A stretch of 64,000 nt of DNA, from NCBI RefSeq assembly GCF_037892425.1, contig NZ_JBBKTT010000001.1:248001-312000 (forward strand). The letters are read 5' to 3'. Of the stretch, positions 799 through 50,666 are shown piece after piece. The position numbers were made by a program, and so were the translations under genes. Numbering within the stretch: position 1 is the first letter of the stretch; the number at the start of each line of letters is the position of its first letter. The notes beneath the pieces were generated by a model. The model was not told the DNA's origin. It ran no database searches and was given only the letters and a program-made list of their open reading frames with translations. Origin of the DNA: Lacibacter sp. H375 (GTDB lineage Bacteria; Bacteroidota; Bacteroidia; Chitinophagales; Chitinophagaceae).

Positions 799-3700
799 AT
801 GGCGAAAAATTTTCCGGCAATTCATTTCATCAAGTCTGTACTGCTTTTTATCACAAGGCATCATATTTTAGTAACGCTGGGATTATGTTCTCTCGCATTT
901 CAAATAAATGCACAGATTACAAGTGCGGGCATACGTGGCAATGTAAGAGCGCAAAATGGGGAAGAGCTTGAAAGGATAACCATACAGGCAATTCATGAAC
1001 CTACAAAATCAGTGTATGCAACCGTTTCCCAAAAAGGAGGAACTTACAATTTACCCAATCTTAAAAGTGGCGGACCTTACACGCTCATTTTTTCTTATAT
1101 CGGATTTGCGAGTGATACACTTACTGATGTTCAATTAAGTTTAGGCAGCATAGAAAATATCAACAGTGTTTTACAACCACTTTCAACCTCTTTAGAGGAT
1201 ATTATTATCCGTAGTAATAAAAAAATCATTCGCAGAACCGGTGCCGGTACTTCTATTTCAAAAAGCCAGATTGAAAATTTTCCTACCATTAGCAGAAGTT
1301 TACAGGATTTTACACGTTTAAGCCCACAATCAAATGGCAACAGTTTAAGCGGTACCAATTATCGCTATAATAATTTAAGCATTGATGGAGCCGCTTTGAA
1401 TGATGCATTTGGTTTTACCGAACCTGCAAGTGGTGCAGGCGGATCATTGGCATCGGGCACTCCCGGAGGCTTAGCAAAAACACAACCCATCAGTTTAGAA
1501 GCCATACAGGAAGTACAGGTAGAAGTATCGCCTTACACAGTAACGTTAGGAAATTTTACCGGGGGCAGTATTAATGCTGTCACAAGAAGTGGTACAAATC
1601 AATTTTCAGGTTCTGCTTTTTTCTCAGGGAGAAACCAATGGTTAACCGGACCAACAGCCGATGCAAAGCGCCAACGCATAGAAAATTTTTCTGATTATCA
1701 AACCGGCTTTCGACTGGGAGGCCCAATCATCAAGAATAAACTTTTCTATTTTACAGCTATTGAAATTGCAAGAAGAAACGAACCTGTTGCATTCGCACCC
1801 GGCAGCGATGGCTCAGCTATACCGTTTGCACTTGCAAAAGCATTGTACGATACGGTTCTATCCCGTTACAACTATGATCTTGGCTCTTATGAAGATGTTA
1901 CCTTAAAGATCAACAGCGATAAATTTTTTGCGAAGCTTGACTGGAATGTGAATAGTGTACACAAACTGAGCATCAGGCACAATTATGTACAGGCATTTGC
2001 AGATAACAATGAACGGTCTGCAAACATTCTAAACTTCGGCAGCCAGGGATTCCGGCACAGCAGTAAAACGCATAGTGCGGTGTTTGAAGCAAAATCCAAT
2101 TTCTCAAATCGTCTTTCCAGTAACCTCATTATTGGTTTCACCAACACAAAAGATGAGCGGCAGATCAAAGGAGATCTGTTTCCACATATTGAAATTACTT
2201 ACAACACTGCCAATACTATTTATCTGGGAGCGTACCGTGAAGCGGCGGTATATGGATTGAATTTAAAAACAATTGAACTAACGGATAACCTTACGTTCTA
2301 CCGAAGAAAACAAACGATCACCATTGGCACGCACAATGAATTTTACAATATTGACTATCGTTTCCTTACCGCATTTAACGGACGTTGGGCTTACAGAAGC
2401 GTGGATGATTTTTTTGCTGAGAAACCAAGCCGCATACGTGGTGTTTATAATTTACAGAATAACGATTATGAATTCAACAGAAATAATCCGTCAGCCAGTT
2501 TTCGTGTGTTTTTATTGAGTCAATACATACAGGATGAAATTGCAATCACAAAAAACTTACGTGTAACAGCAGGCATCCGTTTTGATTTTACGGCTTACCC
2601 CGACAGACCTTCCGTAAATCCTGATGTAACAAAAACAAAAGGTTTTGAAAATTTTTCCAACAGTAACAATCCATATCCGCAAATTGCACCACGAGTTGGT
2701 TTCAACTGGAATATAAACGGTAACCAACAACTGGTACTAAGAGGTGGAAGCGGCATCTTCAATGGCCGTATGCCATTTGCATGGCTGGCGTATCCTTATT
2801 ACAACAGTGGTACAACCTATGGCAATGTAGATGTTCGTCCCACAATAAGTGTTCCGTTGATCAACGATGTATCGCAGATTGCTGCCACCTATCAACCCGG
2901 CATACGTGAAATTAATTTACTCGATAACAATTACAAACTACCACAGGTATTCCGTAACAGTTTAGGTATCGATTTTAAAACGGAGAATGGCTGGTCACTT
3001 TCTGTTGAAGCTGTATATACAAAAACATTGAATGATGTGTTGTATAAAACAATCAATCTGAAAGACAGTACTGCCGGTTTAACCGGAGCAGGTGATAACC
3101 GAACTGTATATCTTGGCAATGGAAATGCACAAAAGCTGAATGCTTCTTTCACGAACGTATTTCTGTTAACCAACACGAATGAAGGTTACCGCTATCAACT
3201 TTCTGTTACAGTCGGAAAACGCATCAAAGCGTTTCAATTTCTTACCGCTTACACGTATGGCGTATCAAAAGATATTTCCAATGGTGTACGTGTTTCGCCA
3301 CAGGCGAATTGGGAATTCAATCAAACGATTTTACCGAATGCTCCGCAGTTATCTTATTCTAACTTCGATCTGCGTCATCGCAGCATCAGCAATCTTCAAT
3401 ACAATCATAAGTGGAAACGCAGCAGTGTAAATGTGATCTTTGTTTATACATTACAATCCGGCAGTCCGTATACCTATACCTATATTGGCGACATAAACCG
3501 TGATGGTTCACCTAACAACGATCTGATTTATATTCCACGCAATCAAACTGAAAGTAACCTCGTTGATATAAAAGATGCGGCGGGAAATATAGTAACAACT
3601 GCTGCTGCTCAATGGGAGCAATTGAATAATTACATCGAACGAGATCGCTACCTCAGTAAACGAAGAGGCCAGTATGCAGAACGAAATGGAGCACGCACTC

Positions 3701-4005
3701 CCTGGAATCAGCAACTTGATATGAAGGTTATGTATTCGATACAATTAGGTTCCGAAGAACAAAATCATACACTTGGTTTTTCACTGGATGTATTTAATCT
3801 TTCCAATCTTATTTCGAGAAACTGGGGACGGCAATATTATGTTCCCAATATTTTAAACAGCAGTTACCAACTACTCACTGTTGCAAGAGTGAACAGTTCA
3901 TTACAAACGGAATTAAATTTTTCAAACCCGCAAACAAAAGCCTGGCAATACGATGCACTGCTCTCCAGAGCGCAGGGGTTATTCAGCATTCGTTACAGTT
4001 TTTAA
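799..4005 (+). CDS. TonB-dependent receptor with N-terminal carboxypeptidase-regulatory-like domain (Oar type)
   Basis: A 1068-residue outer-membrane receptor. A long signal peptide ends near LAFQINAQ (about residue 39). A carboxypeptidase-regulatory-like/Ig-like domain covers about 40-125, a plug about 130-270 (SIDGAALNDAF and a GGSINAVTRSGTN segment), and the rest is a beta-barrel ending in the aromatic LFSIRYSF. This plan matches Oar-like TonB receptors rather than SusC, and no SusD gene follows. The PiT gene starts only 9 bp after the stop, so the two are almost surely co-transcribed. Sitting between arsS and arsM, it may take up arsenate, phosphate or an arsenical, but the substrate cannot be read from sequence. 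The start is the only methionine ahead of the signal peptide. Confidence 0.88.
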   Translation: MAKNFPAIHFIKSVLLFITRHHILVTLGLCSLAFQINAQITSAGIRGNVRAQNGEELERITIQAIHEPTKSVYATVSQKGGTYNLPNLKSGGPYTLIFSYIGFASDTLTDVQLSLGSIENINSVLQPLSTSLEDIIIRSNKKIIRRTGAGTSISKSQIENFPTISRSLQDFTRLSPQSNGNSLSGTNYRYNNLSIDGAALNDAFGFTEPASGAGGSLASGTPGGLAKTQPISLEAIQEVQVEVSPYTVTLGNFTGGSINAVTRSGTNQFSGSAFFSGRNQWLTGPTADAKRQRIENFSDYQTGFRLGGPIIKNKLFYFTAIEIARRNEPVAFAPGSDGSAIPFALAKALYDTVLSRYNYDLGSYEDVTLKINSDKFFAKLDWNVNSVHKLSIRHNYVQAFADNNERSANILNFGSQGFRHSSKTHSAVFEAKSNFSNRLSSNLIIGFTNTKDERQIKGDLFPHIEITYNTANTIYLGAYREAAVYGLNLKTIELTDNLTFYRRKQTITIGTHNEFYNIDYRFLTAFNGRWAYRSVDDFFAEKPSRIRGVYNLQNNDYEFNRNNPSASFRVFLLSQYIQDEIAITKNLRVTAGIRFDFTAYPDRPSVNPDVTKTKGFENFSNSNNPYPQIAPRVGFNWNINGNQQLVLRGGSGIFNGRMPFAWLAYPYYNSGTTYGNVDVRPTISVPLINDVSQIAATYQPGIREINLLDNNYKLPQVFRNSLGIDFKTENGWSLSVEAVYTKTLNDVLYKTINLKDSTAGLTGAGDNRTVYLGNGNAQKLNASFTNVFLLTNTNEGYRYQLSVTVGKRIKAFQFLTAYTYGVSKDISNGVRVSPQANWEFNQTILPNAPQLSYSNFDLRHRSISNLQYNHKWKRSSVNVIFVYTLQSGSPYTYTYIGDINRDGSPNNDLIYIPRNQTESNLVDIKDAAGNIVTTAAAQWEQLNNYIERDRYLSKRRGQYAERNGARTPWNQQLDMKVMYSIQLGSEEQNHTLGFSLDVFNLSNLISRNWGRQYYVPNILNSSYQLLTVARVNSSLQTELNFSNPQTKAWQYDALLSRAQGLFSIRYSF

Positions 4006-4014
4006 ATTCTATAC

Positions 4015-4995
4015 ATGACATTTCTCTTATTGCTTGCAGTGCTTTTACTTACATACGCCAATGGTGCGAATGATAATTTTAAAGGAACTGCTACTTTATG
4101 GGGAAGTGGCACGTTGAACTACAAGCAGGCACTGTTGCTTGCAACACTATTTACATTCGCCGGATCGATCTGTTCCTATTTTCTTGCAAATGGATTGGTG
4201 AAAAATTTTTCAGGTAAAGGTTTAGTGCCCGATGAAATATTACAGACAAAAGAATTTGTATTGGCCGTTGCAGGTAGTACCGGTATTACTATTTTACTGG
4301 CAACATTCTTAGGTTTTCCTGTTTCAACTACGCACGGTTTAGTGGGTGCATTAGTTGGTGCGGGCATTGTAACTGCAGGCAGCAAGGTTGATATAAGTGT
4401 ATTAGGTAAAACATTTTTTCTTCCATTACTCATCAGTCCGTTGATCGCCATTCTTATAACAGGTATTCTGTATAAGATCATTTCCACAACAAAGAAAACC
4501 GACTATACTGTTGCTGGATTATCCATAACAGGCAACAGATCGTTTCTTAACCCGCTTCACTATCTCAGTGCAGGCGTTGTAAGTTTTGCAAGAGGGTTGA
4601 ACGATACACCTAAACTCATTTCACTACTATTACTTTCAACTTATTTCAGTATGCCCATCAACTTTTTACTACTTGCAGTTGTAATGGCAATTGGAGGATT
4701 GATCAATGCACGCAAAATTGCTGAGACCATGAGTAAAAAAATTACAAGGCTTTCACCCCAACAGGGATTATTGGCGAATATGGTTACCGGCACAATGGTG
4801 ATCATTGCCAGTAAATTTGGGTTACCCGTTTCTACCACACATGTATCTGTTGGCAGTCTTTATGGCATTGGTCTTTCTGCAAAATCTGCCGATAATAAAG
4901 AAATAGCGAAGATCGCATTATCATGGCTGCTCACGTTGCCAATTGCAGCCATCATCAGTGCAACCATTTATTTTATTATATCGTATATCAACTAA
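4015..4995 (+). CDS. PiT-family inorganic phosphate transporter
   Basis: A 326-residue, highly hydrophobic inner-membrane carrier with the internal duplication of the PiT family. GANDNFKG at residues 17-24 is mirrored by RGLNDTPK near residue 193, and the paired motifs GFPVSTTHGLVGA and GLPVSTTHVSVGS appear in each half. PiT proteins carry metal-phosphate with H+ or Na+, and arsenate is a known competing substrate. The gene is 9 bp behind the TonB receptor and 24 bp ahead of arsM, so it forms part of the ars operon. No phoU-like gene is next to it, which is unusual for bacterial PiT genes and hints at a role tied to arsenic rather than general phosphate supply (inference). Confidence 0.9.
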   Translation: MTFLLLLAVLLLTYANGANDNFKGTATLWGSGTLNYKQALLLATLFTFAGSICSYFLANGLVKNFSGKGLVPDEILQTKEFVLAVAGSTGITILLATFLGFPVSTTHGLVGALVGAGIVTAGSKVDISVLGKTFFLPLLISPLIAILITGILYKIISTTKKTDYTVAGLSITGNRSFLNPLHYLSAGVVSFARGLNDTPKLISLLLLSTYFSMPINFLLLAVVMAIGGLINARKIAETMSKKITRLSPQQGLLANMVTGTMVIIASKFGLPVSTTHVSVGSLYGIGLSAKSADNKEIAKIALSWLLTLPIAAIISATIYFIISYIN

Positions 4996-5019
4996 ACTCA
5001 CCATCAAATAAAAAAGACA

Positions 5020-5994
5020 ATGAGCACTACTTATCTCGAAACAACAAAAAATGTTTACAAAGAAGCCGCTGAAAACCCGCAAGTTGGTTTGTGCTGCACC
5101 ACTACACCCATTTGGCAATTGCCAGGATTAGATATTCCGGTGCGTATGCAACAGATGAATTACGGATGTGGCAGTACCGTTCATCCAAGAGATCTCGTGA
5201 ATAATCCACGAATACTGTATGTTGGCGTTGGCGGAGGAATGGAGTTGTTGCAGTTTGCCTATTTCAGTCGCCAGTTAAATGGTGTGATAGGTGTTGATGT
5301 GGTGGATGAAATGTTGCAGGCAAGCAGAGACAATTTTACAGAAGCTGAACGGAAAAATTCCTGGTTCCGTTCCGAGTTTGTGGATCTGCGTAAAGGTGAT
5401 GCATTGAATTTGCCGGTTGAAGACAACAGTATTGATGTGGCTGCACAAAATTGCCTCTTCAATATTTTTAAACAGGAAGAATTGAAACTGGCATTAGAAG
5501 AAATGTATCGTGTGTTGAAACCAAGAGGTCGTTTGGTGATGAGTGATCCAACCTGTGAGCAGGATATTCCGGAGAACCTGCGTGAAGATGAACGCCTGCG
5601 GGCTTTATGTTTAAGTGGTTCTTTACCGTTGTGGGATTATATTAAAATGATCACCGATGCAGGATTTGGTACAGTAGAAATAAGAGCGAAACGTCCGTAT
5701 CGTATTCTTGATCCAAAGAATTATGATACCAACGAATTACTCTTTATTGAAAGTGTGGAAGTGTGTGCCATTAAAGATCCGATGCCTGCTGATGGACCTT
5801 GTGTGTTTACCGGTAAAACAGCAATTTATTTTGGAAATGAAGAATGCTTTGATGATGAGAAAGGGCATGTATTATTGCCCAATCAACCATTAGCGGTATG
5901 CGATAAAACCGCAGCTGCATTGGCCTCATTAAACCGTGAAGATATTTATATTTCAGGCTCTACCTGGTTTTACGACGGTGGTGGATGCTGCTAA
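5020..5994 (+). CDS. arsM: ArsM, arsenite S-adenosylmethionine methyltransferase (arsenosugar type)
   Basis: A 324-residue class I methyltransferase. The SAM-binding loop is VGVGGGME (about 68-75), followed by the GVDVVDEML acidic strand. Cysteine pairs suited to binding trivalent arsenic are visible: Cys25-Cys26, Cys50 in NYGCGS, and a terminal GGGCC. The C-terminal extension with further cysteines is typical of the ArsM found beside ArsS in arsenosugar clusters. The family methylates arsenite to mono- and dimethyl arsenicals. The gene lies 24 bp after the PiT gene and 13 bp before a glycosyltransferase. The ATG at 5020 is preceded by AAAAAAGACA, giving no strong Shine-Dalgarno, as is usual in Bacteroidota. 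Confidence 0.9.
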   Translation: MSTTYLETTKNVYKEAAENPQVGLCCTTTPIWQLPGLDIPVRMQQMNYGCGSTVHPRDLVNNPRILYVGVGGGMELLQFAYFSRQLNGVIGVDVVDEMLQASRDNFTEAERKNSWFRSEFVDLRKGDALNLPVEDNSIDVAAQNCLFNIFKQEELKLALEEMYRVLKPRGRLVMSDPTCEQDIPENLREDERLRALCLSGSLPLWDYIKMITDAGFGTVEIRAKRPYRILDPKNYDTNELLFIESVEVCAIKDPMPADGPCVFTGKTAIYFGNEECFDDEKGHVLLPNQPLAVCDKTAAALASLNREDIYISGSTWFYDGGGCC

Positions 5995-6007
5995 TGCTAA
6001 AACTTAC

Positions 6008-6634
6008 ATGACCAAGAAAGCAATTATTGTATTTGTAAAAAATCCCGAACCGGGAAAAGTAAAAACAAGATTAGCAAAGGATATCGGCGATGCTGCAGCG
6101 GTTGACGTTTACCGTCAGTTGCTGCGGCATACGCATGATGTGCTGATACCTGTTGCCGCAAATAAATTCGTTTTCTATGCAGATGAAATTAATCGTCTTG
6201 ATCTGTGGGAAACAAATTCGTTTTACAAACAGCTGCAGTATGGAAATGATTTGGGCGAACGGATGCAACATGCGTTTTCTTTTTTGTTTGAACTGGGTTA
6301 TGAACATGTGCTGATCATCGGCAGCGATTGTCCGCAACTCTCTACAGAGCATCTGAACAAGGCATTTGAATTATTGGAAACACATGATGTATGCATTGGA
6401 CCGGTTGATGATGGAGGTTATTATTTACTTGGATTACGTGCTGTTCATCCAGCATTTTTCAGTAACAAAGCATGGAGTACCGACAGTGTTTACAGCAGCA
6501 CTATCAACGATGCAGCTGAGGCCGGGTTAACGGTTGCTGTAACCGAACAGTTAAGAGATGTAGACACGCTTATTGATTGGGAAGAGTTGAAAGAATTACT
6601 CGATTATCAGAAAGCTTCACCAATGGTAAAATAA
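6008..6634 (+). CDS. TIGR04282-type arsenosugar biosynthesis glycosyltransferase
   Basis: A 208-residue protein with a nucleotidyltransferase-like GT-A fold. The N-terminus IVFVKNPEPGKVKTRLAKDI matches the CofC/MobA-like family, followed by DLGERMQHAF, GSDCPQLS and GPVDDGGYYLLGL. This is the 'rSAM/selenodomain-associated' family 1 (TIGR04282), repeatedly found with ArsS. I chose the ATG at 6008 because an upstream in-frame start at 5936 would overlap arsM by 59 bp and add residues that do not fit the family. Its last 28 bp overlap the 3' end of the convergent Omp85-like gene. The product probably supplies the sugar-transfer step of arsenosugar synthesis, though its donor is unknown. Confidence 0.85.
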   Translation: MTKKAIIVFVKNPEPGKVKTRLAKDIGDAAAVDVYRQLLRHTHDVLIPVAANKFVFYADEINRLDLWETNSFYKQLQYGNDLGERMQHAFSFLFELGYEHVLIIGSDCPQLSTEHLNKAFELLETHDVCIGPVDDGGYYLLGLRAVHPAFFSNKAWSTDSVYSSTINDAAEAGLTVAVTEQLRDVDTLIDWEELKELLDYQKASPMVK

Positions 6635-7680
6635 AAAGCGGTTGAATTTTTTCCAAAACCTGCGTCTAAACGCAGGTTTATTTTTTCGGCAGGGTTTAAT
6701 GCAAAACGAAGTCCTGCACCGTACGTTGTACGAATATGCTCCGCAATATTTTTCAGTTGATCATTTACTGCACCTGCATTGGCGAACACCGTTCCACCAA
6801 ATCGTTTGTAGATCTTGAAGCGGTATTCTGTTCCTGCTGCCAGGAGATTTTTATCCCGGTAGCGCCCTTCATAAAACCCACGCATTTTTTTATTACCACC
6901 CAACAATGCCAGTTGACTGAACGGTACATTTCCATCAACCATGTCTGCAAACAGATTAAAAGCCCACACATTTTTTCGTTTGGTTGAAAGATAAGTGGAT
7001 GCATCAAGTGTATAGCGCTTGTATTTATAGTTGCTGCCGGTTACATTACCGTAGAACTGTGCTCCTGCATCAACAAACACACCGGCGCCGGCAAAGAAAA
7101 TATTATCACGGGTATCGTAATTCAATGCGGGACCAATACCTGAAATAAAACTTCGTGTACTTCCTTCGATTGTACCAGATGAAAGTTGCTTGCCCTGTTC
7201 TGTTTCCACCACACGATAATCTTCCAACCAATAACGCAGGCCTGCATAGAGCTTTGGATTGATCTTACGCAACACATTCAATCGCACTCTTGGATAGTTT
7301 ACTTTGTATAATTCTTTGTAATCAGCAGGCTGATCATTTCCGATGCCGAAAAAGTAGTATGAGTATTTGTAATAACCCACTTCGCCATAAGCAGTAAACT
7401 TGCTTCCGGGTGTGTAAATACGAAACGGTGCATACAATAACAGTTGCTTATTAAATGTATAGGCTGCTCCAAACTGCACTTGAGAAGGATAAAGTTGTGC
7501 AGTATCTTTTTTATTCCGGAACGTATACGCTGCAAATCCGCCAACAGCCACGCTTGTTTCAGGCGAATAAAACACAACGGGAAATGCAGATAGACGACGA
7601 GGTTTATTTTTTCTGCTGCTGTCTTGCGAAAAAACATTTGCTGTAAAAAAAAAGATGACTGCAGAAAAAATAAACCTCAT
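6607..7680 (-). CDS. BamA/TamA-like (Omp85) outer membrane barrel protein, no POTRA domains
   Basis: A 357-residue exported protein with a signal peptide (MRFIFSAVIFFFTANVFSQ). It goes almost straight into beta-barrel strands, and no POTRA repeats are visible, so it is much shorter than BamA or TamA. The barrel part contains the Omp85 'surface antigen' pattern: a GGNKKMRGFYEGRYRDKN loop (comparable to the VRGY/F-type barrel motif), then alternating aromatic strands and a C-terminal FYFTIGEAF. It is the last gene of a minus-strand run (VOC protein 16 bp upstream) and overlaps the 3' end of the convergent glycosyltransferase by 28 bp. The function is unknown; short POTRA-less Omp85 proteins are common in Bacteroidota. 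Confidence 0.75.
   Translation of the reverse strand: MRFIFSAVIFFFTANVFSQDSSRKNKPRRLSAFPVVFYSPETSVAVGGFAAYTFRNKKDTAQLYPSQVQFGAAYTFNKQLLLYAPFRIYTPGSKFTAYGEVGYYKYSYYFFGIGNDQPADYKELYKVNYPRVRLNVLRKINPKLYAGLRYWLEDYRVVETEQGKQLSSGTIEGSTRSFISGIGPALNYDTRDNIFFAGAGVFVDAGAQFYGNVTGSNYKYKRYTLDASTYLSTKRKNVWAFNLFADMVDGNVPFSQLALLGGNKKMRGFYEGRYRDKNLLAAGTEYRFKIYKRFGGTVFANAGAVNDQLKNIAEHIRTTYGAGLRFALNPAEKINLRLDAGFGKNSTAFYFTIGEAF
6656..6686 (+). terminator. Rho-independent terminator of the ars operon, inside a convergent gene
   Basis: A 9-bp perfect stem AAACCTGCG / CGCAGGTTT (6656-6664 / 6671-6679) with a TCTAAA loop is followed by ATTTTTT. It lies 21 bp after the glycosyltransferase stop. It is also within the C-terminal codons (NLRLDAGF region) of the minus-strand barrel gene, so it could be partly a coding coincidence. 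Confidence 0.6.
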
Positions 7681-7696
7681 AATTGTGTGGCGCCTG

Positions 7697-8755
7697 CTAC
7701 ACTTTTACCCTCGAGAAACTGAGACTTTTTACCATCCAGTTGGGTAACGGTTTTTCAGGCTTCCTGTTTTTTAAGTTTAAATACCATCCTATTTTTTTCA
7801 GGATGGGTACACGATGTGTTTCTACATATTCGATCCATGTTCCGTCCGGATCTTCGTTGTACGAAAAGTGACCGGCTGCTTCACCCATATCAAAACTATT
7901 GGCACTGTCAACGGTGAACGGAAAACCATTTTCATTGCAGATGCGTTCGTGTTCTTCGTAACCATTAATATCAAAGCACACATGAATGTATCCCTGATCG
8001 CCCCAATAGCGGTTTTCAAAAATCTTCTTGGGCGTACGATCAGTTACTTCAATCAATTCAACATAGGTTGGGCCGAGTAACTTTGAAAATGCCCCTTCCT
8101 GTTTGCGTGTATGTCCCAGCATCACACGTTTGAAATTGTGTTGCCCACCGGGTATGTTGCTGAACTCATCGTAATGACCTTCATCCAAAAACAATTGCTT
8201 ATCGTAACCCAATACTTTTTCATAAAACGGAATTGCTTTCGCTATTGAACTAACGCCGATGGTTACGCCACAAACACCACCGGTATGTCTTCCAGTATCA
8301 CTGAACCAATTTTCATCCGCCATTACTTCAAAAATATTTCCGTACGGATCTTTCATGAAGAACGATTCAATGCCACCCGGATTTTCTTTTGGTGCGCTCA
8401 ACAGGTTTAAACCTGCTTTCTGATATTCAGCATAAGCAGCTTTTACATTTTTACATTTGATCTTGATCATGAAAATACCTGTGTCACCCAACTGCACTTC
8501 AAATGTAGCAGGTTGTGATTTGCGGCTGCGGTATTCCCAAATTTCAAATCCACCACCACCTTGCATGTTCAATGCAAGGATTGCATATCGCTCGTGACCT
8601 TCACCACCGGTATAACGTTTCATCAGCTCTGCCCGTGCAGCATCTTTAAACACAACTACATCGGTTCCAAAATGTTTATTGTACCAGATAAATGCTTCAT
8701 CTGCATTTGTTACACCGATACCTACCTGCTGAATACCACTGATGATCCGTTTCAT
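7697..8755 (-). CDS. VOC-superfamily protein with two glyoxalase-like modules
   Basis: A 352-residue cytosolic protein. Two vicinal-oxygen-chelate modules are seen. The first begins at IQQVGIGVTNADEAFIWYNK and contains FFMKDPYGNIFEVM. The second begins at VCGVTIGVSSIAKAIPFYEKVL and contains YIHVCFDING and HFSYNEDPDGTWIEYVE. The paired beta-alpha-beta layout resembles glyoxalase/dioxygenases, and 4-hydroxyphenylpyruvate dioxygenase is a distant possibility, but I do not see its usual C-terminal region. The substrate is unknown. The gene ends 16 bp upstream of the Omp85-like gene and probably forms an operon with it. Confidence 0.75.
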   Translation of the reverse strand: MKRIISGIQQVGIGVTNADEAFIWYNKHFGTDVVVFKDAARAELMKRYTGGEGHERYAILALNMQGGGGFEIWEYRSRKSQPATFEVQLGDTGIFMIKIKCKNVKAAYAEYQKAGLNLLSAPKENPGGIESFFMKDPYGNIFEVMADENWFSDTGRHTGGVCGVTIGVSSIAKAIPFYEKVLGYDKQLFLDEGHYDEFSNIPGGQHNFKRVMLGHTRKQEGAFSKLLGPTYVELIEVTDRTPKKIFENRYWGDQGYIHVCFDINGYEEHERICNENGFPFTVDSANSFDMGEAAGHFSYNEDPDGTWIEYVETHRVPILKKIGWYLNLKNRKPEKPLPNWMVKSLSFSRVKV

Positions 8756-8803
8756 TGAACTTATTTTTATTTACGAAAGCGTGAAGATATTAGTTTTTCG
8801 AAT

Positions 8804-9490
8804 TTACCAATTGAGTAAGCGTTTGTAAAGTGCTGCCATTTCTTCCTGCGATGCCCCATTTTTATACATAAGCATCATAGTACGGTTTGCCGTCTGCACT
8901 TTCCACCAACTGTTTTTGTCGTATTTCCGGTCGGAGATGAGTGCCCCGGCAGCAAAGATTTTATACTGTGACTGTTGCCTTGCACGTTCAACAAATTCGT
9001 AATCCTCCATTACACGCATATCTCTTCGATAGCCGCCGGTTGTAACAAATAATTCTCTTGTAACAAATAAGGTTTGATCTCCGCCATAGCAGGCAAACCA
9101 ATCGAACCGTGAAAAGAACGACATCATTTGCACATACCATTTCCTGGTGTTGAATGTTGTGCGATAACGGCCCAACCCATATCCATCGGCAACGGCCTTT
9201 TGAATATCGGTTGCAAAACTTGGTGGGGGAAATACATCGGCATGCACAAAATAAAAGACCGATCCACTTGCTTTTGAGGCACCATAGTTTAACTGGGCAC
9301 CTCTGCCTTTTTTCGGTGATACAACAACAGTTGCTCCAGCTTTGGTCGCTACCTCCTTTGTCTCATCAGTGCTTGCTGCATCGCACACAATTATTTCCTG
9401 CAGTAAAGAACCTCCATGCAGCTTCAGGTAGGTAACCAGTGATGCTATGTTTTTTTCTTCGTTGTAAACAGGAATAATAACTGAGATCAT
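8804..9490 (-). CDS. TIGR04283-type arsenosugar biosynthesis glycosyltransferase (GT2)
   Basis: A 228-residue GT-A family 2 glycosyltransferase beginning ISVIIPVYNEEKNIASLV. It has the DAASTDET loop, GRGAQLNYGA, FVHADVFPP (metal-binding DxD equivalent HAD) and the acceptor-site EDYEF. These traits match the 'rSAM/selenodomain-associated' family 2 (TIGR04283), the usual partner of the TIGR04282 enzyme. I set the start at the CAT of 9488-9490, which puts the Ile-Ser-Val-Ile strand at the N-terminus; a longer frame to 9571 would run through the upstream terminator. It lies 49 bp from the VOC gene. With arsS, arsM and the plus-strand glycosyltransferase it completes the known arsenosugar gene set. 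Confidence 0.85.
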   Translation of the reverse strand: MISVIIPVYNEEKNIASLVTYLKLHGGSLLQEIIVCDAASTDETKEVATKAGATVVVSPKKGRGAQLNYGASKASGSVFYFVHADVFPPPSFATDIQKAVADGYGLGRYRTTFNTRKWYVQMMSFFSRFDWFACYGGDQTLFVTRELFVTTGGYRRDMRVMEDYEFVERARQQSQYKIFAAGALISDRKYDKNSWWKVQTANRTMMLMYKNGASQEEMAALYKRLLNW

Positions 9491-9525
9491 GAACACAAAT
9501 TGGCGATGAAGATAAGTAAGACGCA

Positions 9526-9554
9526 GAAAAAAACCGCAGTGTTTTGCTGCGGTT
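9526..9554 (-). terminator. Rho-independent terminator after the MuiA-like gene
   Basis: Reading the minus strand, an 8-bp perfect stem AACCGCAG / CTGCGGTT (9547-9554 with 9532-9539) and a 7-nt loop are followed by a run of T (A's at 9527-9533 on the plus strand). It lies 10 bp past the stop codon of the DUF4139 gene. Confidence 0.8.
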
Positions 9555-9563
9555 GATGAATGG

Positions 9564-11198
9564 TTAGTCAAGTTGTAACTTCTTCTCTTTCGGGTATTTT
9601 ACACTGTACTTCATTTCCATTTTCTTCAACTGTTTTGGATCGATGGTAAAGGTCCAAGTGATGATCTTTGTTTCTTCGTTTAGCTTAGCGCCATCATACT
9701 TTATATCCTCAACTTCAATTTCTTTAAGCGTTGAAATAGGAAACTGATCTTCCACAATAATATTCACCGGAACAGTCTTGTTATTGCGAACGGTTATTTC
9801 ATACTGTTTGGTTTCGGTACGGTTTCCACCAAGGAATTTCTTGCTGCTGAACTCTTTCAGCAATGTTCGTTTAACTGTGATCCCTTTATCGACACCTAAC
9901 GAAAGTGATAAAGTATCATTATCAGTTGACAGATCGAGATAGGATTTACCAAGGAATGTTCCTTCGAAAAACAAATTGGTTTCACCGGGAATTAAATTAA
10001 GATCCTGCCAATTGATAAGCTTGGCTGTGAGGTATGCAGCTTCATCTAATTTGGGAGCAGAGTAATATTCATAATAAGCTTCGATGCTTTTGTCATTGAT
10101 GCTCATCGTATTTACTTTGCCATCGTTATTCACTGTTGCTATTTCCTGTATTTCGTATTGAGTAGTGATGGGTTGAAAAGTTGTGACGACTTGCAAAGGA
10201 ATTGATTTGTCTTCCTTTTTTAAAGAAGATGCCCCTCTTATTTGAATACCTGGAGTACTACCAGCCAAGAATCCTTCTGTAGTTCCATAGCCAGTTACAA
10301 CGACTTCCTGTAGATGATTTACTGCCGGCTTTATTGCATAAGAAATAAACCATGGATTAACGAGTGGTTTTGTATTATTATCATTCGGGTTACCGGTTGA
10401 TAATACCAGTTTAATGTTGTTCCAATTCTCTCCACTTGTTTGGTACACATTCGCATTCATTTCCAATTGCAGTTTACTCACCACATCTTTCACACGTATA
10501 TTATAAGTGGGATACCAACCTGCTTTCTGCACGAGATAAGAAATTTCAAACGGAACTGTTGCCGTTTCTTTTACATCAGCAAGAACCACAATTTCATTGG
10601 TGGAGAGATCGATCTTCCTGCTCATTTCTGCCAGTTGATTCGACAATTTATTCCGTTCCTTATTCATCTCTTCGATCTCTTTTTGCAGAGTCAGTTGTTG
10701 TTTCAACACTTCTGTTAATCTTGCTCTTTGAAAATCGAGTGATTGTCTTAATTCTTCTGGCTTCAATGTAACTGTTGATCCAGCTATCTGCTGGTTTTTG
10801 ATCAGCATTGCTTCTTCCTGCTTAAATACTTCCAGCACTTTGGATGTAAGACTGATCTTATCATTTAGCTGAAAGAATTTTTCCTGGGTTGTTTTGATCT
10901 CTTCTCTTACTTCCTGTTCTTTTAAATAATCACGTTGAACACGTACCGATAAAATAGTGAGTCGGCCATCGGCCTTCACCTGCACACTTTGTTTTTCAAT
11001 ATCGGTGGAGATACCTGTAAAAACAATTTCCTGCTTGCCTGCAGTAATGGATTGTTTTACCGTTCGTTTAACCTGTGCCCCTTTCATGAACACCGTTACC
11101 TGTTCCATTTTTGTTTCAACAGGAACACGTTTTACTGATTGAGCAACTAATGTAATGGGGAGTACATAAAGAAGAAATTGCAGCCATTTCGTTTTCAT
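9564..11198 (-). CDS. MuiA-family (DUF4140/DUF4139) exported protein with a plug-box-like insert
   Basis: A 544-residue protein with a signal peptide (MKTKWLQFLLYVLPITLVAQ), a DUF4140 N-terminal domain (VTVFMKGAQVKRT...), a long coiled coil at about 95-200 (rich in E/K/Q), and a DUF4139 C-terminal domain with VPFEISYLVQKAGWYPTY and a terminal extended beta region. 'Mucoidy inhibitor A' is a name only; the biochemical role is unknown. Odd: residues 296-325 inside DUF4139 read LQEVVVTGYGT and PGIQIRGASS, words typical of SusC plug domains. I use the ATG at 11198 because it starts a clean signal peptide; the frame is open to 11228. Terminators flank it on both sides, so it is likely monocistronic. 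Confidence 0.85.
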   Translation of the reverse strand: MKTKWLQFLLYVLPITLVAQSVKRVPVETKMEQVTVFMKGAQVKRTVKQSITAGKQEIVFTGISTDIEKQSVQVKADGRLTILSVRVQRDYLKEQEVREEIKTTQEKFFQLNDKISLTSKVLEVFKQEEAMLIKNQQIAGSTVTLKPEELRQSLDFQRARLTEVLKQQLTLQKEIEEMNKERNKLSNQLAEMSRKIDLSTNEIVVLADVKETATVPFEISYLVQKAGWYPTYNIRVKDVVSKLQLEMNANVYQTSGENWNNIKLVLSTGNPNDNNTKPLVNPWFISYAIKPAVNHLQEVVVTGYGTTEGFLAGSTPGIQIRGASSLKKEDKSIPLQVVTTFQPITTQYEIQEIATVNNDGKVNTMSINDKSIEAYYEYYSAPKLDEAAYLTAKLINWQDLNLIPGETNLFFEGTFLGKSYLDLSTDNDTLSLSLGVDKGITVKRTLLKEFSSKKFLGGNRTETKQYEITVRNNKTVPVNIIVEDQFPISTLKEIEVEDIKYDGAKLNEETKIITWTFTIDPKQLKKMEMKYSVKYPKEKKLQLD

Positions 11199-46333: not shown

Positions 46334-47197
46334 ATGATCAGGAAAAGTACAATACAGCTTTTGCGGTTTCATTTTTCGATTTTCTTAATGCCCGTTTACT
46401 GGTTTGCATTAACACAATTGGTGAACATCAACTGGAGCAATGCACTATTGATCTTTATAATACTGCATGTACTTGTCTATCCATCAAGCAATGGTTACAA
46501 CAGCTATATGGACAGGGACAGCTCCCCTATTGGCGGCCTTGCCAATCCTTTGCAACCCACAAAGCAGTTATTTTATGTAACAATCGTAATGGATGTACTG
46601 GCAGTTGCACTTTCATTCTTTATCAGTTACTGGTTGGCGTTAGGTATACTTATTTATATCATTGGTTCAAGGTTATACAGCTATCGTGGCGTTCGGCTAA
46701 AACAATATCCGATCATTGGTTATCTCACAGTCATCACGTTACAAGGCGGTTTGGTTTTCTGGATGGTGTATCATGGAAGTTCTGTGTTGTTGAAAACAGG
46801 CATGCCGATTGCAGCTATGATTGCGGCAAGCTTACTGATCGGTGGATTTTATCCGCTTACACAAATTTATCAGCACAAGCAGGATAAAGAAGATGGAGTT
46901 ACAACCATCAGTTACTTGCTCGGTTATCGCAAAACATTTGTATTCTGTGCAATTGTTTACTCAGTCGCAATGCTTTTTGTTGGATATACTTTCTTTGCAT
47001 CGCTCATGATAAAAGAATTTTTCATCCTCAGCATCTTTTTTCTTCCCATTCTCGTTTATTTCTTATGGTGGGCAGTGAAAGTGTGGAAATCAGAAAGTTT
47101 TGCAGATTTTAAACATACGATGCAGATGAACGTTTTGGCAAGTGTATGCACCAATGCAGCATTTATAACGATCTTAATCATGAATCAATTTGAGTAA
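46334..47197 (+). CDS. UbiA-family prenyltransferase
   Basis: A 287-residue integral membrane protein with about nine helices. The first Asp-rich motif is NGYNSYMDRD at 53-62 (N..D.D form of NDxxDxxxD). The second is YQHKQDKEDG at 179-188. Both bind Mg-diphosphate in UbiA enzymes, which transfer prenyl groups to aromatic or quinone-like acceptors. It is the first gene of a four-gene operon; its stop overlaps the next gene's TTG start by 8 bp. The likely acceptor is the aromatic product of the neighbouring type III PKS (inference). Confidence 0.88.
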   Translation: MIRKSTIQLLRFHFSIFLMPVYWFALTQLVNINWSNALLIFIILHVLVYPSSNGYNSYMDRDSSPIGGLANPLQPTKQLFYVTIVMDVLAVALSFFISYWLALGILIYIIGSRLYSYRGVRLKQYPIIGYLTVITLQGGLVFWMVYHGSSVLLKTGMPIAAMIAASLLIGGFYPLTQIYQHKQDKEDGVTTISYLLGYRKTFVFCAIVYSVAMLFVGYTFFASLMIKEFFILSIFFLPILVYFLWWAVKVWKSESFADFKHTMQMNVLASVCTNAAFITILIMNQFE

Positions 47198-48278
47198 ACT
47201 TGTTTCCATTGGCACGGCCGTTCCGGCGTTTAAACATGCACAAAAAGATATTCTGCAGTTCATGCAGGAAGTGTATGCATTGGATACGGTTGAAAACAGG
47301 AAATTAAAATTCTTGTATAGCCAAAGTGGTATTCATACCCGTTACTCGGTTATTCCCGATTACAGTCATAAGTTACCTGAATGGAAGTTTTATCCGCATA
47401 GCGAAAACCTTGAACCCTTTCCAGATCTTGAACACCGCATGCGTTGGTTCGATCGTTATGCCGCTCCCTTATCAGTTGATGCTATCAGGCAATGTATTGC
47501 TGGAAAGATCAACAGTCAACAAATTACGCATCTCATCACGGTTAGCTGCACAGGCATGAGTGCGCCAGGTCTTGACCTGATGGTGATGGAGTTGATGGAT
47601 CTTCCAAAAAACATCTTTCGTACTTCCATCAACTTCATGGGTTGTTATGCAGCTATTCACGGATTAAAAATGGCGGATATGATTTGCAAGACGGATCGTT
47701 CAGCAAAAGTGATGATCGTTTGTACAGAATTGTGTACACTGCATTTTCAAAAAGATGCGAGTCCAGACAGTATTGCTTCTACACTTTTATTTGGCGATGG
47801 AAGTGCAGCAGCATTGGTAATGCATGATGATGCACCAGCAAAGGGACTGCACCTGAAAAGTTTTTACAGCGAAGTTGTTCCGAAAGGAAAACGGGATATG
47901 GCTTGGGAGCTTTCGTCAACAGGTTTCTTAATGACGCTGAGTGGATATATTCCCGATCTGATCAAAGAAGATTTTGCACCATTGGTAGAACGTGCTTTAC
48001 AATATGCAGGCTTGCAGCAGGAAGATATCAGTAACTGGTGCATTCATCCCGGAGGCAGGCGCATAGTAGATACGATTCATAAATCGCTGCAATTGCCGGA
48101 AGGAAAACTACAAGCTTGTTATGATGTGTTGCGTGACTTTGGCAACATGTCATCTCCCACTATTTTATTCGTGTTGAAAGAATTGATGCAAAACAGCAGC
48201 AATGATGAATCCATTTTTGGTGCCGCCTTTGGCCCCGGTTTAACAATGGAAACTTTTGTAGCTTCAACACATGCCTGA
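47190..48278 (+). CDS. Type III polyketide synthase
   Basis: A 362-residue thiolase-fold enzyme of the chalcone/stilbene/alkylresorcinol synthase family. The catalytic triad fits: Cys152 in FMGCYAAIHGL, His286 in WCIHPGGRRIVD, Asn319 in FGNMSSPTILFV. VSCTGMSAPGLD matches the conserved loop before the active site. Such enzymes extend an acyl-CoA with malonyl-CoA and cyclise the chain. The start is a TTG at 47190 inside the UbiA 3' end; no ATG is suitably placed. The gene overlaps both its neighbours by 8 bp. The closest functional parallel is SrsA/ArsB-type alkylresorcinol or alkylpyrone synthases (inference). Confidence 0.93.
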   Translation: MSKLVSIGTAVPAFKHAQKDILQFMQEVYALDTVENRKLKFLYSQSGIHTRYSVIPDYSHKLPEWKFYPHSENLEPFPDLEHRMRWFDRYAAPLSVDAIRQCIAGKINSQQITHLITVSCTGMSAPGLDLMVMELMDLPKNIFRTSINFMGCYAAIHGLKMADMICKTDRSAKVMIVCTELCTLHFQKDASPDSIASTLLFGDGSAAALVMHDDAPAKGLHLKSFYSEVVPKGKRDMAWELSSTGFLMTLSGYIPDLIKEDFAPLVERALQYAGLQQEDISNWCIHPGGRRIVDTIHKSLQLPEGKLQACYDVLRDFGNMSSPTILFVLKELMQNSSNDESIFGAAFGPGLTMETFVASTHA

Positions 48279-48975
48279 TCTTTCCAAACGATCATATCAA
48301 AAAGAAATACTCGATGGCGATGACAGCCCGTTTGAAGACATCAAACGAAACATGCACGAGCTTGATGTGATCAATACATGGTTGGGCGGACATCAAATTA
48401 CGATTAATGGACTGCAGCAATTGATGAAGGATGAAAGTCACCCGCATGTAATTCACATCTGTGAAATTGGTTGTGGCGGCGGCGATAATCTCAGAGTAAT
48501 ACAACAATACTGTAAAAAGAAAAGCATTTCTGTAAAACTGATTGGTGTTGATATCAACCCACATTGCATTGCTTTCGCTCAGTCAAGAAAAGAAAATGAA
48601 GGCATTGAATTTATTTGTTCAGATTATTCAACTGTATCGTTCCCACAAAAACCAGGTATTATTTTTTCCTCTTTGCTCTGCCATCACTTTACTGAACAGG
48701 AATTGCAACAGCAGTTTGTGTGGATGAAGGATCATTCCTCAATGGGCTTTTTTGTGAATGACTTACACCGACATCCGATCGCTTATCATTCCATCAAACT
48801 CATAACAAGATTTTTTTCAAAATCATACCTTGTGAAAAACGATGCGCCGTTGAGCGTTGCACGAGGATTTAAAAAAGATGAGCTTACTCAACTTTGTGAT
48901 CGTTCGTCCATCAACAAATATCAATTAAAATGGATGTGGGCTTTTCGTTGGTTATTGATTTATAAACATGACTGA
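48271..48975 (+). CDS. Class I SAM-dependent methyltransferase (PKS tailoring)
   Basis: A 234-residue Rossmann methyltransferase with motif I EIGCGGGDNL at 65-74, acidic loop GVDINPHCIAFA, and a motif IV-like IIFSSLLCHHFTEQEL. The family contains ubiquinone/menaquinone-type and BpsB/SrsB-like methyltransferases that modify PKS products. It begins with ATGCCTGA, overlapping the PKS stop by 8 bp, and ends overlapping the FAD gene by 8 bp. It probably O- or C-methylates the phenolic lipid (inference). Confidence 0.86.
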   Translation: MPDLSKRSYQKEILDGDDSPFEDIKRNMHELDVINTWLGGHQITINGLQQLMKDESHPHVIHICEIGCGGGDNLRVIQQYCKKKSISVKLIGVDINPHCIAFAQSRKENEGIEFICSDYSTVSFPQKPGIIFSSLLCHHFTEQELQQQFVWMKDHSSMGFFVNDLHRHPIAYHSIKLITRFFSKSYLVKNDAPLSVARGFKKDELTQLCDRSSINKYQLKWMWAFRWLLIYKHD

Positions 48976-50104
48976 CAGGCATTACGATATTGCAATTATT
49001 GGTGGCGGTTTGGCTGGATTGGCACTAGCTATTCAATCGGCAAAACAAGGTTATTCAGTTGTGTTATTTGAAAAAGAAAAATATCCTTGCCATAAAGTAT
49101 GTGGTGAATACATCAGCATGGAGAGCTGGAACTTTCTTGAATCACTAGGAGTTCCATTATCAACTTTAAACTTGCCTATCATTAAACAACTGGAAGTGTC
49201 GTCGCCTCAAGGAAATATCTTTCAACATGAACTGCCACTTGGCGGTTTTGGAATCAGTCGTTACAAATTGGATGAACTTCTGGCGACTATTGCCCGTCAA
49301 CATAATGTTCTTTTGCTGGAAGAAACAAAAGTGAATGATGTGATCTTTCAGAACGACGCATTTATCATTCATTCATCTGCAGGTGCGTTTACTTCAACAG
49401 TTGCGGCGGGTTGTTTTGGCAAGCGCAGTAATCTTGATGTAAAATGGAATCGAAATTTTGTGCAGCAAAAACCAAATAAACTCAACAACTACATTGCTGT
49501 TAAATATCATATCAACATCAATCGTCCGGCTGGTGTAATTGCATTGTACAATTTCGAAAATGGATATTGTGGTATTTCACAAATCGAAGATGGAAAATAT
49601 TGTTTGTGTTATTTGACTACTGCGGTTAACCTGCAGAAAAGCAATAACAACATTGAGCAGATGGAGAAAAACATTCTCTGTAAAAATCCACAGCTTAAAA
49701 AAATATTCTCTGAAGCTGAGTTTTTATACGATACACCCGTAACCATTTCACAGATCAGCTTTGAACAAAAGCAACAGGTAGAACATCATGTGTTGATGAT
49801 CGGTGATGCAGGTGGAATGATCACGCCTCTTTGTGGCAACGGCATGAGCATGGCTATGCATGGAAGCAAACTTGCTTTTGAACAGGTACATGCGTTTCTG
49901 CAACAGCAAATCACACGGCAGCAGATGGAAGAATTTTATAGCTGTAACTGGCAACAGCAATTTGCCAAACGATTAAAAACCGGCAGGCTTATTCAAGGTT
50001 TATTTGGCAAACCAAGCATCACCAATCTCTTCATCAATTCAGTCAAAACGCTGCCGTTCCTGGCCAAGCCTTTGATACGCCTCACACACGGCCAATCTTA
50101 CTAA
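48968..50104 (+). CDS. FAD-dependent oxidoreductase (geranylgeranyl-reductase-/monooxygenase-like)
   Basis: A 378-residue flavoprotein. The FAD Rossmann motif is IIGGGLAGLALA (about 10-21), followed by FEKEKYPCHKVCGEYIS, a common feature of the geranylgeranyl reductase/aromatic hydroxylase branch. The second FAD motif is IGDAGGMITPLCGNGMSMAMH (about 278-298). In srsABC-like pathways the third gene is a flavin hydroxylase that turns the methylated resorcinol into a quinone; a prenyl-chain reductase is the alternative. It overlaps the methyltransferase by 8 bp and ends the operon. Confidence 0.86.
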   Translation: MTDRHYDIAIIGGGLAGLALAIQSAKQGYSVVLFEKEKYPCHKVCGEYISMESWNFLESLGVPLSTLNLPIIKQLEVSSPQGNIFQHELPLGGFGISRYKLDELLATIARQHNVLLLEETKVNDVIFQNDAFIIHSSAGAFTSTVAAGCFGKRSNLDVKWNRNFVQQKPNKLNNYIAVKYHININRPAGVIALYNFENGYCGISQIEDGKYCLCYLTTAVNLQKSNNNIEQMEKNILCKNPQLKKIFSEAEFLYDTPVTISQISFEQKQQVEHHVLMIGDAGGMITPLCGNGMSMAMHGSKLAFEQVHAFLQQQITRQQMEEFYSCNWQQQFAKRLKTGRLIQGLFGKPSITNLFINSVKTLPFLAKPLIRLTHGQSY

Positions 50105-50110
50105 AAAATT

Positions 50111-50134
50111 AATTTTCAGTAATTACTGAAAATT
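50111..50134. promoter_or_regulatory. Perfect 24-bp palindrome upstream of the GbsR/MarR gene
   Basis: The half-site AATTTTCAGTAA (50111-50122) is followed directly by its exact reverse complement. It lies 25 bp before the regulator's ATG and 6 bp after the PKS operon stop. A TAACTTAG sequence at 50148-50155 resembles a -7 box, so the palindrome would cover the -33 region. It is the likely operator of the regulator that follows, giving autoregulation (inference). Confidence 0.65.
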
Positions 50135-50159: not shown

Positions 50160-50666
50160 ATGAAATTATCGGAAGCCAAACAACAGTTCATCAGCACCTG
50201 GGGCGCCATGGGTACACATTGGGGCATTAACCGCACAATGGCACAGGTACATGCTTTACTGATGATCAGTCCTGACCCACTTACGCAGGACGATGTGATG
50301 GCCCAGTTGAATATCAGCCGGGGGAATGTGAACATGAATATACGTGACCTGATCGATTGGGGTTTGGTGGACCGTGTTTTGATCCAGGGTGAACGCAAAG
50401 AATATTTCACAGCAGAAAAGGATATCTGGAAAGTAGCCCGACAGATCATTAAAGAACGGAAGAAGCGTGAACTTGATCCCATGATGAAACTGATGGATCA
50501 GTTGAGCAAAGTAGATGGCGATAAAAAAGATAAAGAAGTAAAAACCTTTCTCGACACCATTAGTGGAATTAAAAAATTTGGTGCCCATGCTGATAGTATG
50601 CTTGATGTGGTGGTGAAGAGTGATGAGAACTGGTTTATCAGTACAGCATTGAAACTCTTTAAATAA
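50160..50666 (+). CDS. GbsR/MarR-family transcriptional regulator
   Basis: A 168-residue winged-helix protein. It has QQFISTWGAMGTHWGINRTMAQVHALLMIS at the start, the recognition region LTQDDVMAQLNISRGNVNMNIRDLIDWGLV (about 42-71), and the wing ERKEYFTAEKD. This is the GbsR branch. The C-terminal helices mediate dimerisation. It sits 55 bp after the PKS operon, in the same direction, with a perfect palindrome before it and a terminator after it. It could control itself, the upstream operon, or both. Confidence 0.86.
   Translation: MKLSEAKQQFISTWGAMGTHWGINRTMAQVHALLMISPDPLTQDDVMAQLNISRGNVNMNIRDLIDWGLVDRVLIQGERKEYFTAEKDIWKVARQIIKERKKRELDPMMKLMDQLSKVDGDKKDKEVKTFLDTISGIKKFGAHADSMLDVVVKSDENWFISTALKLFK

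Follow-up and report, generated by a model that had tools for sequence, protein, structure and literature searches.

The window analyzed here, a stretch of 64,000 nucleotides from Lacibacter sp. H375 (family Chitinophagaceae, phylum Bacteroidota; contig NZ_JBBKTT010000001.1, positions 248,001 to 312,000), contains four codirectional genes coding for a UbiA-superfamily membrane protein, a type III polyketide synthase (PKS), an S-adenosylmethionine (SAM)-dependent methyltransferase (MT) and a flavin adenine dinucleotide (FAD)-dependent oxidoreductase (Table 1). A first-pass annotation of this DNA had described the four genes with three overlaps of exactly 8 bp, and our analysis confirmed both the gene set and the overlaps. 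Comparison across Bacteroidota showed that they represent a real, conserved and widespread four-gene pathway, predicted to join a PKS-MT-flavoenzyme cassette for phenolic lipids to a peculiar branch of UbiA proteins. The genome of the strain (5.08 Mb) contains one type III PKS match above the cut-off and four UbiA matches.

Gene junctions and gene order

The frequency of 8-bp overlaps was determined in the window together with 20 stretches of 20 kb (400 kb) from the same genome, using a crude caller of open reading frames (ORFs). Of the 248 codirectional pairs of neighboring ORFs, six have a downstream start at position -8; three of those pairs are the junctions of this operon, which leaves 3 of 245 elsewhere. 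It is thus unlikely that three such overlaps in a row arose by chance. We then searched Bacteroidota for the same gene order and overlaps, as the first-pass annotation had proposed. The order was present in 50 distinct loci, counted with the four genes co-oriented and in order, PKS-sequence duplicates removed and the window included. The junction counts are valid for this co-oriented arrangement alone, with the start of each gene taken as the one nearest to that expected from homology. The UbiA/PKS junction is at -8 in 28 of the 50 loci and at -4 in another 14 (together 42), and TTG is the start codon of the PKS gene in 45. The PKS/MT and MT/FAD junctions are at -8 in nine and seven loci, respectively. 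As all three are at -8 in only 4 of the 50 loci, the triple coincidence is real, yet not diagnostic, and we set aside a functional meaning of the three identical overlaps, which mostly are not conserved. The tight translational coupling that had been proposed for the whole operon therefore holds in part: UbiA and the PKS are probably coupled, given their conserved junction, whereas the other two overlaps mostly do not recur.

A fixed gene order, also suggested earlier, was not borne out. The UbiA>PKS>MT>FAD order is kept in most Chitinophagaceae loci (Niastella, Longitalea, Flavisolibacter, Paraflavisolibacter and others), and rearrangements were found mostly outside this family. In four loci (L098, L099, L128 and L129), the UbiA gene is divergent from PKS-MT and the FAD gene lies beyond it; UbiA is also divergent in one locus of the window's own family (L123). 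The FAD gene is upstream of the PKS gene in two loci (L096 and L127), and in some genomes outside the family UbiA is located elsewhere, unlinked from the PKS. No recurrent informative neighbor of such unlinked UbiA genes was found among the few neighborhoods scanned. Four of 69 wide loci (L085, L095, L108 and L116) yielded no PKS ORF and were left off the order map and the phylogenetic tree.

Some loci contain the cassette without UbiA. A Roseomonas plasmid carries PKS-MT-FAD, and two genomes of family f5, in the window's class, have the order FAD-MT-PKS (L111, positions 6579 to 9447, and L121); a close UbiA was found in neither of these genomes. These arrangements argue that the three enzymes suffice for the phenolic core. 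The FAD and MT proteins of L111 and L121 belong to the same families as those of the window, but their type III PKS is very different; the MT-FAD tailoring pair has apparently switched PKS partners.

Table 1. Coordinates of the four genes, their junctions and the downstream elements, numbered within the window
Feature	Position	Strand	Remarks
UbiA-superfamily membrane protein, 287 aa	46334..47197	+	Pfam UbiA, 58.1 bits (cut-off 34.2)
Type III PKS, 362 aa, TTG start	47190..48278	+	Chalcone/stilbene synthase N-terminal domain 85.1 bits, C-terminal domain 82.8 bits (cut-off 27)
SAM-dependent MT, 234 aa, PRK06202-related	48271..48975	+	Methyltransf_25, 43.7 bits (cut-off 27)
FAD-dependent oxidoreductase, 378 aa, nearest to the geranylgeranyl-reductase/QhpG group	48968..50104	+	Pfam DAO, 35.7 bits (cut-off 27.9)
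UbiA/PKS overlap, 8 bp	47190..47197	+	TTGAGTAA
PKS/MT overlap, 8 bp	48271..48278	+	ATGCCTGA
MT/FAD overlap, 8 bp	48968..48975	+	ATGACTGA
Perfect palindrome, 20 bp	50113..50132		TTTTCAGTAATTACTGAAAA
MarR/GbsR-like regulator gene	50160..50666

Co-occurrence of the genes in genomes

A phylum sample of 395 genomes was searched with a UbiA profile (A1, E ≤ 1e-10), and the matches fell into three tiers. Close matches (tier 1, above 330 bits) were found in 26 genomes. Tier 2 comprises 35 genomes of family f24, 34 of them with matches at 122 to 156 bits and one with a fragment of 47 bits, and tier 3 comprises 54 genomes with matches at 41 to 51 bits, which we read as other UbiA enzymes. A close PKS (E ≤ 1e-86) is present in 27 genomes, including all 26 tier-1 genomes; the remaining one (G321) has a second-tier UbiA. 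The FAD gene is likewise present in all 26. In six of these genomes UbiA is unlinked from the PKS, and both the PKS and the FAD gene are still there. This complete co-occurrence, which includes genomes with unlinked UbiA genes, supports the idea that the four genes act together in one pathway. All 35 tier-2 genomes also contain a PKS. In most genomes of the phylum sample, three to six first-look candidates were scored, so that absences are weaker than presences; nearly all candidates were scored in the family search described below.

The converse is not true of the FAD gene. Its profile (A2, E ≤ 1e-40) matched in 82 genomes, all of which have a type III PKS match, but 56 of the 82 have no close UbiA (23 with a middle and 33 with a distant PKS). 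None of the 82 FAD-carrying genomes has a second-tier UbiA.

Among 98 genomes of the window's family, 46 carry UbiA, showing that the four-gene set is not rare. Each of these 46 has a PKS match, strong in 45 and present as fragments in one (G420). Six genomes with a distant PKS alone lack UbiA. Seven of the 54 PKS-holding family genomes are also part of the phylum sample. Two genomes in which no partner gene was seen at the PKS locus (L086 and L087, the latter on a contig of only 4.4 kb) were also searched, and in both UbiA is found elsewhere in the genome. Searches of 72,556 plasmid records gave no match for UbiA.

In a midpoint-rooted tree of 67 PKS proteins, the window's PKS is located inside a 45-row clade (support 98/98) that holds all rows in which a close UbiA is linked to the PKS, together with others that lack such a linked gene. 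The PKS of L111 and L121 are far from this clade, and the program flagged long branches. For the conservation analyses described below, UbiA rows below 250 bits, FAD rows below 280 bits and MT rows below 180 bits were omitted.

Predicted functions and proposed pathway

The PKS does not appear to be inactive, since its catalytic triad, Cys152-His286-Asn319, is intact in all 66 aligned PKS, the window included, in agreement with its initial identification as a type III PKS. Trp239 is present in 64 of the 66 and Met248 in 58. According to a review (PMC6274091, as excerpted), ArsB Trp281 and ArsC Gly284 direct the reaction toward a resorcinol or a pyrone, and a Trp at ArsC position 284 shifts Met293 and favors resorcinol over pyrone. 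Trp239 and Met248 are nine residues apart, the same spacing as ArsC Gly284 and Met293, a correspondence that was mapped by spacing and not by alignment with ArsC. The MT matched PRK06202 with 113.2 bits, below the cut-off of 243.

The window's UbiA protein belongs to the UbiA superfamily by its predicted fold and by its Pfam match. Its AlphaFold model (predicted local distance difference test score, pLDDT, of 95.3) was matched by Foldseek to AfUbiA (4tq4) and ApUbiA (4od4) with template modeling scores of 0.69 and 0.70, respectively; phmmer found no match among PDB sequences up to an E value of 10. The hallmark of UbiA prenyltransferases is two Asp-rich motifs, NDxxDxxxD and DxxxD. The corresponding sequences in the window are N53..N56-S57-x-x-D60-x-D62 and Q177..Q180-H-x-x-D184. 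Relative to ApUbiA and chlorophyll synthase in the alignment, motif 1 retains the Asp residues at N+4 and N+6 and has lost that at N+8. Motif 2 retains its last Asp, and the residue four positions earlier is a Gln, or a Ser in chlorophyll synthase. Given these non-canonical metal motifs, prenyl transfer by this protein is an inference, though a likely one. The tight association of this UbiA branch with one PKS clade provides a test of whether UbiA enzymes function with altered aspartate motifs.

With respect to the pathway, we infer the starter, the ring closure, the methylation site, the oxidation reaction, the prenyl donor, the order of the steps and the biological role as follows. The type III PKS would condense a fatty-acyl starter with malonyl-CoA and close the ring by an aldol reaction, yielding an alkylresorcinol or a resorcylic acid. 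The MT would methylate the ring on carbon or oxygen, the FAD enzyme would hydroxylate or oxidize it to a hydroquinone or quinone, and the UbiA-type membrane protein would use a polyprenyl diphosphate to add an isoprenoid chain. The most likely product would thus be an alkylresorcinol or quinone that is methylated, hydroxylated and prenylated. We give about an even chance to this reading, a single pathway whose product is a phenolic lipid soluble in the membrane. If the proposal is correct, it adds a widespread class of lipids or quinones to a phylum that is abundant in soil and water. A bolder version is speculative and, in our estimate, improbable: the product might be a hitherto undescribed isoprenoid quinone of Bacteroidota, with a ring built by a type III PKS and not derived from chorismate, made with a UbiA enzyme that has a rewired metal site (NSxxDxD/QxxxD) and acting alongside menaquinone as a second redox carrier of the membrane.

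Several points weigh against the proposed pathway. The co-occurrence counts ignore shared phylogeny, and the E-value tiers were chosen after the results were seen. In family f24, no second-tier UbiA was seen in 10 of the 45 genomes that hold a PKS. In the sample of the window's family, UbiA was not found in two genomes with a strong PKS (G447 and G454), and both genes are missing from G467, the one further representative of the window's genus. At the level of the proteins, Trp239 is shared by other cluster types and PKS groups and hence discriminates little, and the NSxxDxD and QxxxD motifs are found in all 38 aligned UbiA proteins, from which the canonical NDxxDxxxD and DxxxD are absent.

This last observation is central to an alternative reading, in which the UbiA-like protein would not act as a classical aromatic prenyltransferase. 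It might use another donor or substrate, or move or modify the polyketide lipid, and the product would then be a non-prenylated alkylresorcinol or quinone. Four second-tier relatives that were aligned (152 to 156 bits) also retain NSxxDxDEGxIGGLK and QxYQ, with DxD in place of DxxxD in motif 1 and Gln at the start of motif 2. In addition, the UbiA paralogues in L001 and L003 have motifs that look canonical by eye. Those of a heme O synthase-like paralogue in L002 look less so; it adjoins a cytochrome oxidase gene, and from its neighbors and motifs we read it as a heme O synthase. However, D60, D62, D184, R121 and K123 are invariant in the 38 proteins, as are N53, N56, S57, Q177, Q180 and H181, the fold matches structures with prenyl diphosphate bound (4tq3/4tq4), and chlorophyll synthase likewise lacks the first motif 2 Asp in the alignment. 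We therefore regard this alternative as unlikely, though it retains appreciable weight. Another reading concerns the PKS, which might make alkylpyrones, with the tailoring genes decorating the pyrone. The closest solved relatives of the PKS include, along with a chalcone synthase-like protein, PKS18, which we take to be an alkylpyrone synthase. PKS18 has Leu at the place aligned with Trp239, whereas the window's PKS has Trp as in ArsB, and we consider pyrone formation improbable. Because other PKS groups share Trp239, the evidence for a resorcinol product is moderate.

The identity of the FAD enzyme bears on two further readings. SrsC is a hydroxylase of the UbiH/FAD_binding_3 type. Pfam FAD_binding_3 matched the window's protein with 31.1 bits (cut-off 22) over residues 6 to 66 only, and the flavoenzyme of an f24 locus (L201) with 199.6 bits over its full length. 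The best NCBIfam model was TIGR02032, the geranylgeranyl reductase superfamily, with 100.2 bits, compared with 74.8 bits for QhpG (cut-off 240) and 42.2 bits for UbiH; on these scores a UbiH-type identity appears less likely and was set aside. The enzyme might then saturate the prenyl tail and leave the ring unoxidized, and a geranylgeranyl-reductase-like protein (3oz2) is indeed among its nearest folds, together with halogenases and monooxygenases. However, its score is below the TIGR02032 cut-off of 158.8 bits, and the next relevant point is its distribution: since 56 of the 82 genomes in which the family occurs with a PKS have no close UbiA, and none of the 82 has a second-tier UbiA, we read the enzyme as a ring monooxygenase or oxidase and set the prenyl reductase aside as improbable. 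In addition, a gene whose product is 42% identical is located on the Hymenobacter swuensis plasmid pHsw1 (L151, positions 7893 to 9077) next to genes for an isonitrile synthase and a TauD/TfdA oxygenase; in this neighborhood and in that on a Bernardetia plasmid, no PKS is annotated beside the FAD gene. Halogenation of the product seems very improbable. The top sequence-profile and fold matches in the PDB are the halogenases Mpy16, ChlB4 and PltA, but the family has Y-C-G-I-S where these enzymes show W-x-W-x-I-P, the motif of flavin-dependent halogenases, and this candidate was also set aside.

Related systems and neighboring elements

Plant pathways to cannabinoids and daurichromenic acid combine a type III PKS, a UbiA-type aromatic prenyltransferase and an FAD enzyme, an oxidocyclase of another family. 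The proposed pathway would be a single-operon bacterial counterpart of this PKS-UbiA logic.

The bacterial comparisons that follow are based on excerpts of the cited papers, except where the full text is mentioned. In the actinobacterium Gephyromycinifex aptenodytis, genes for UbiA, a stilbene-synthase-like PKS, an isoprenylcysteine-type methyltransferase (ICMT) and an FAD oxygenase lie side by side (ctg1_2034 to 2037; PMC8779670). Its authors likened the PKS to the Streptomyces griseus alkylresorcinol cluster and proposed alkylresorcinol formation and prenylation, with no enzyme test. The same four functions are thus encoded by neighboring genes, a likeness known from the description. In contrast to the window, where the MT is of the Methyltransf_25 type, the MT there is of the isoprenylcysteine type, and the FAD protein is predicted to be bifunctional with a reductase domain.

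Three of the functions are combined more broadly. In Planctomycetota, 58 of 96 type III PKS genes share an operon with genes for an oxidoreductase and a methyltransferase, and expression of the PKS in Corynebacterium yielded pentadecyl- and heptadecylresorcinols (PMC10896814). Addition of the Gimesia MT and oxidoreductase led to a single methylation, probably at a carbon atom; what the oxidoreductase does was left open in that study. The order in that operon is MT-oxidoreductase-PKS, and the excerpt does not mention UbiA. By its description, the cyanobacterial hidABC operon for hierridins also has the three functions (PMC8086630), and a hierridin-like cluster of Raphidiopsis mediterranea carries a prenyltransferase whose family is not stated. 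In Actinobacteria, the srsABC and pkqABC operons of Streptomyces and mycobacteria encode a PKS, an MT and an oxidoreductase that produce alkyl benzoquinones, polyketide quinones that serve as electron carriers (PMC9927152); "prenyl" occurs nowhere in the text of that paper.

The first-pass annotation had likened the operon to srsABC with a prenyltransferase added. The PKS, MT and flavin enzyme genes do lie together in one operon, as in srsABC and pkqABC, and the shared logic of one pathway stands. In contrast, the FAD enzyme scores nearer to TIGR02032 than to UbiH, whereas the flavoenzyme of L201 matches FAD_binding_3 over its full length, and the UbiA motifs are non-canonical. The first-pass annotation also knew of no described product from Bacteroidota with this exact make-up. 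We found none in the open-licence literature consulted, where two papers on Bacteroidota list type III PKS clusters predicted by antiSMASH without a product, in the excerpts seen (PMC10752948 and PMC12565237); however, the four-function make-up has the actinobacterial precedent described above. The general PKS-MT-flavoenzyme recipe is thus already known for alkylresorcinols and polyketide quinones, and that with four functions has a precedent in print, whereas the version in Bacteroidota is uncharacterized in the open-licence literature found, as are the protein families involved and the product.

Other arrangements of type III PKS genes were observed in the phylum. In five loci (L110, L112, L113, L120 and L130), a PKS of another Bacteroidota group is followed by a gene for a protein of 162 to 174 residues, possibly a BpsB-like methyltransferase. 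In L201 (positions 2509 to 10866), PKS, MT and FAD_binding_3 genes lie downstream of genes for a MatE transporter and a 1303-residue histidine kinase.

The gap that separates the FAD gene from the MarR/GbsR-like regulator gene contains a perfect 20-bp palindrome (Table 1). Palindromes or near-palindromes with TTTTC..GAAAA arms were found in the same gap in four of six loci examined (L063, L064, L065 and L068). No MarR-like gene was found in the Flavisolibacter-type loci examined; in near relatives it comes after the operon, and in Niastella-type loci it is a gene or more away. The palindrome is a likely operator of the MarR/GbsR-like regulator.

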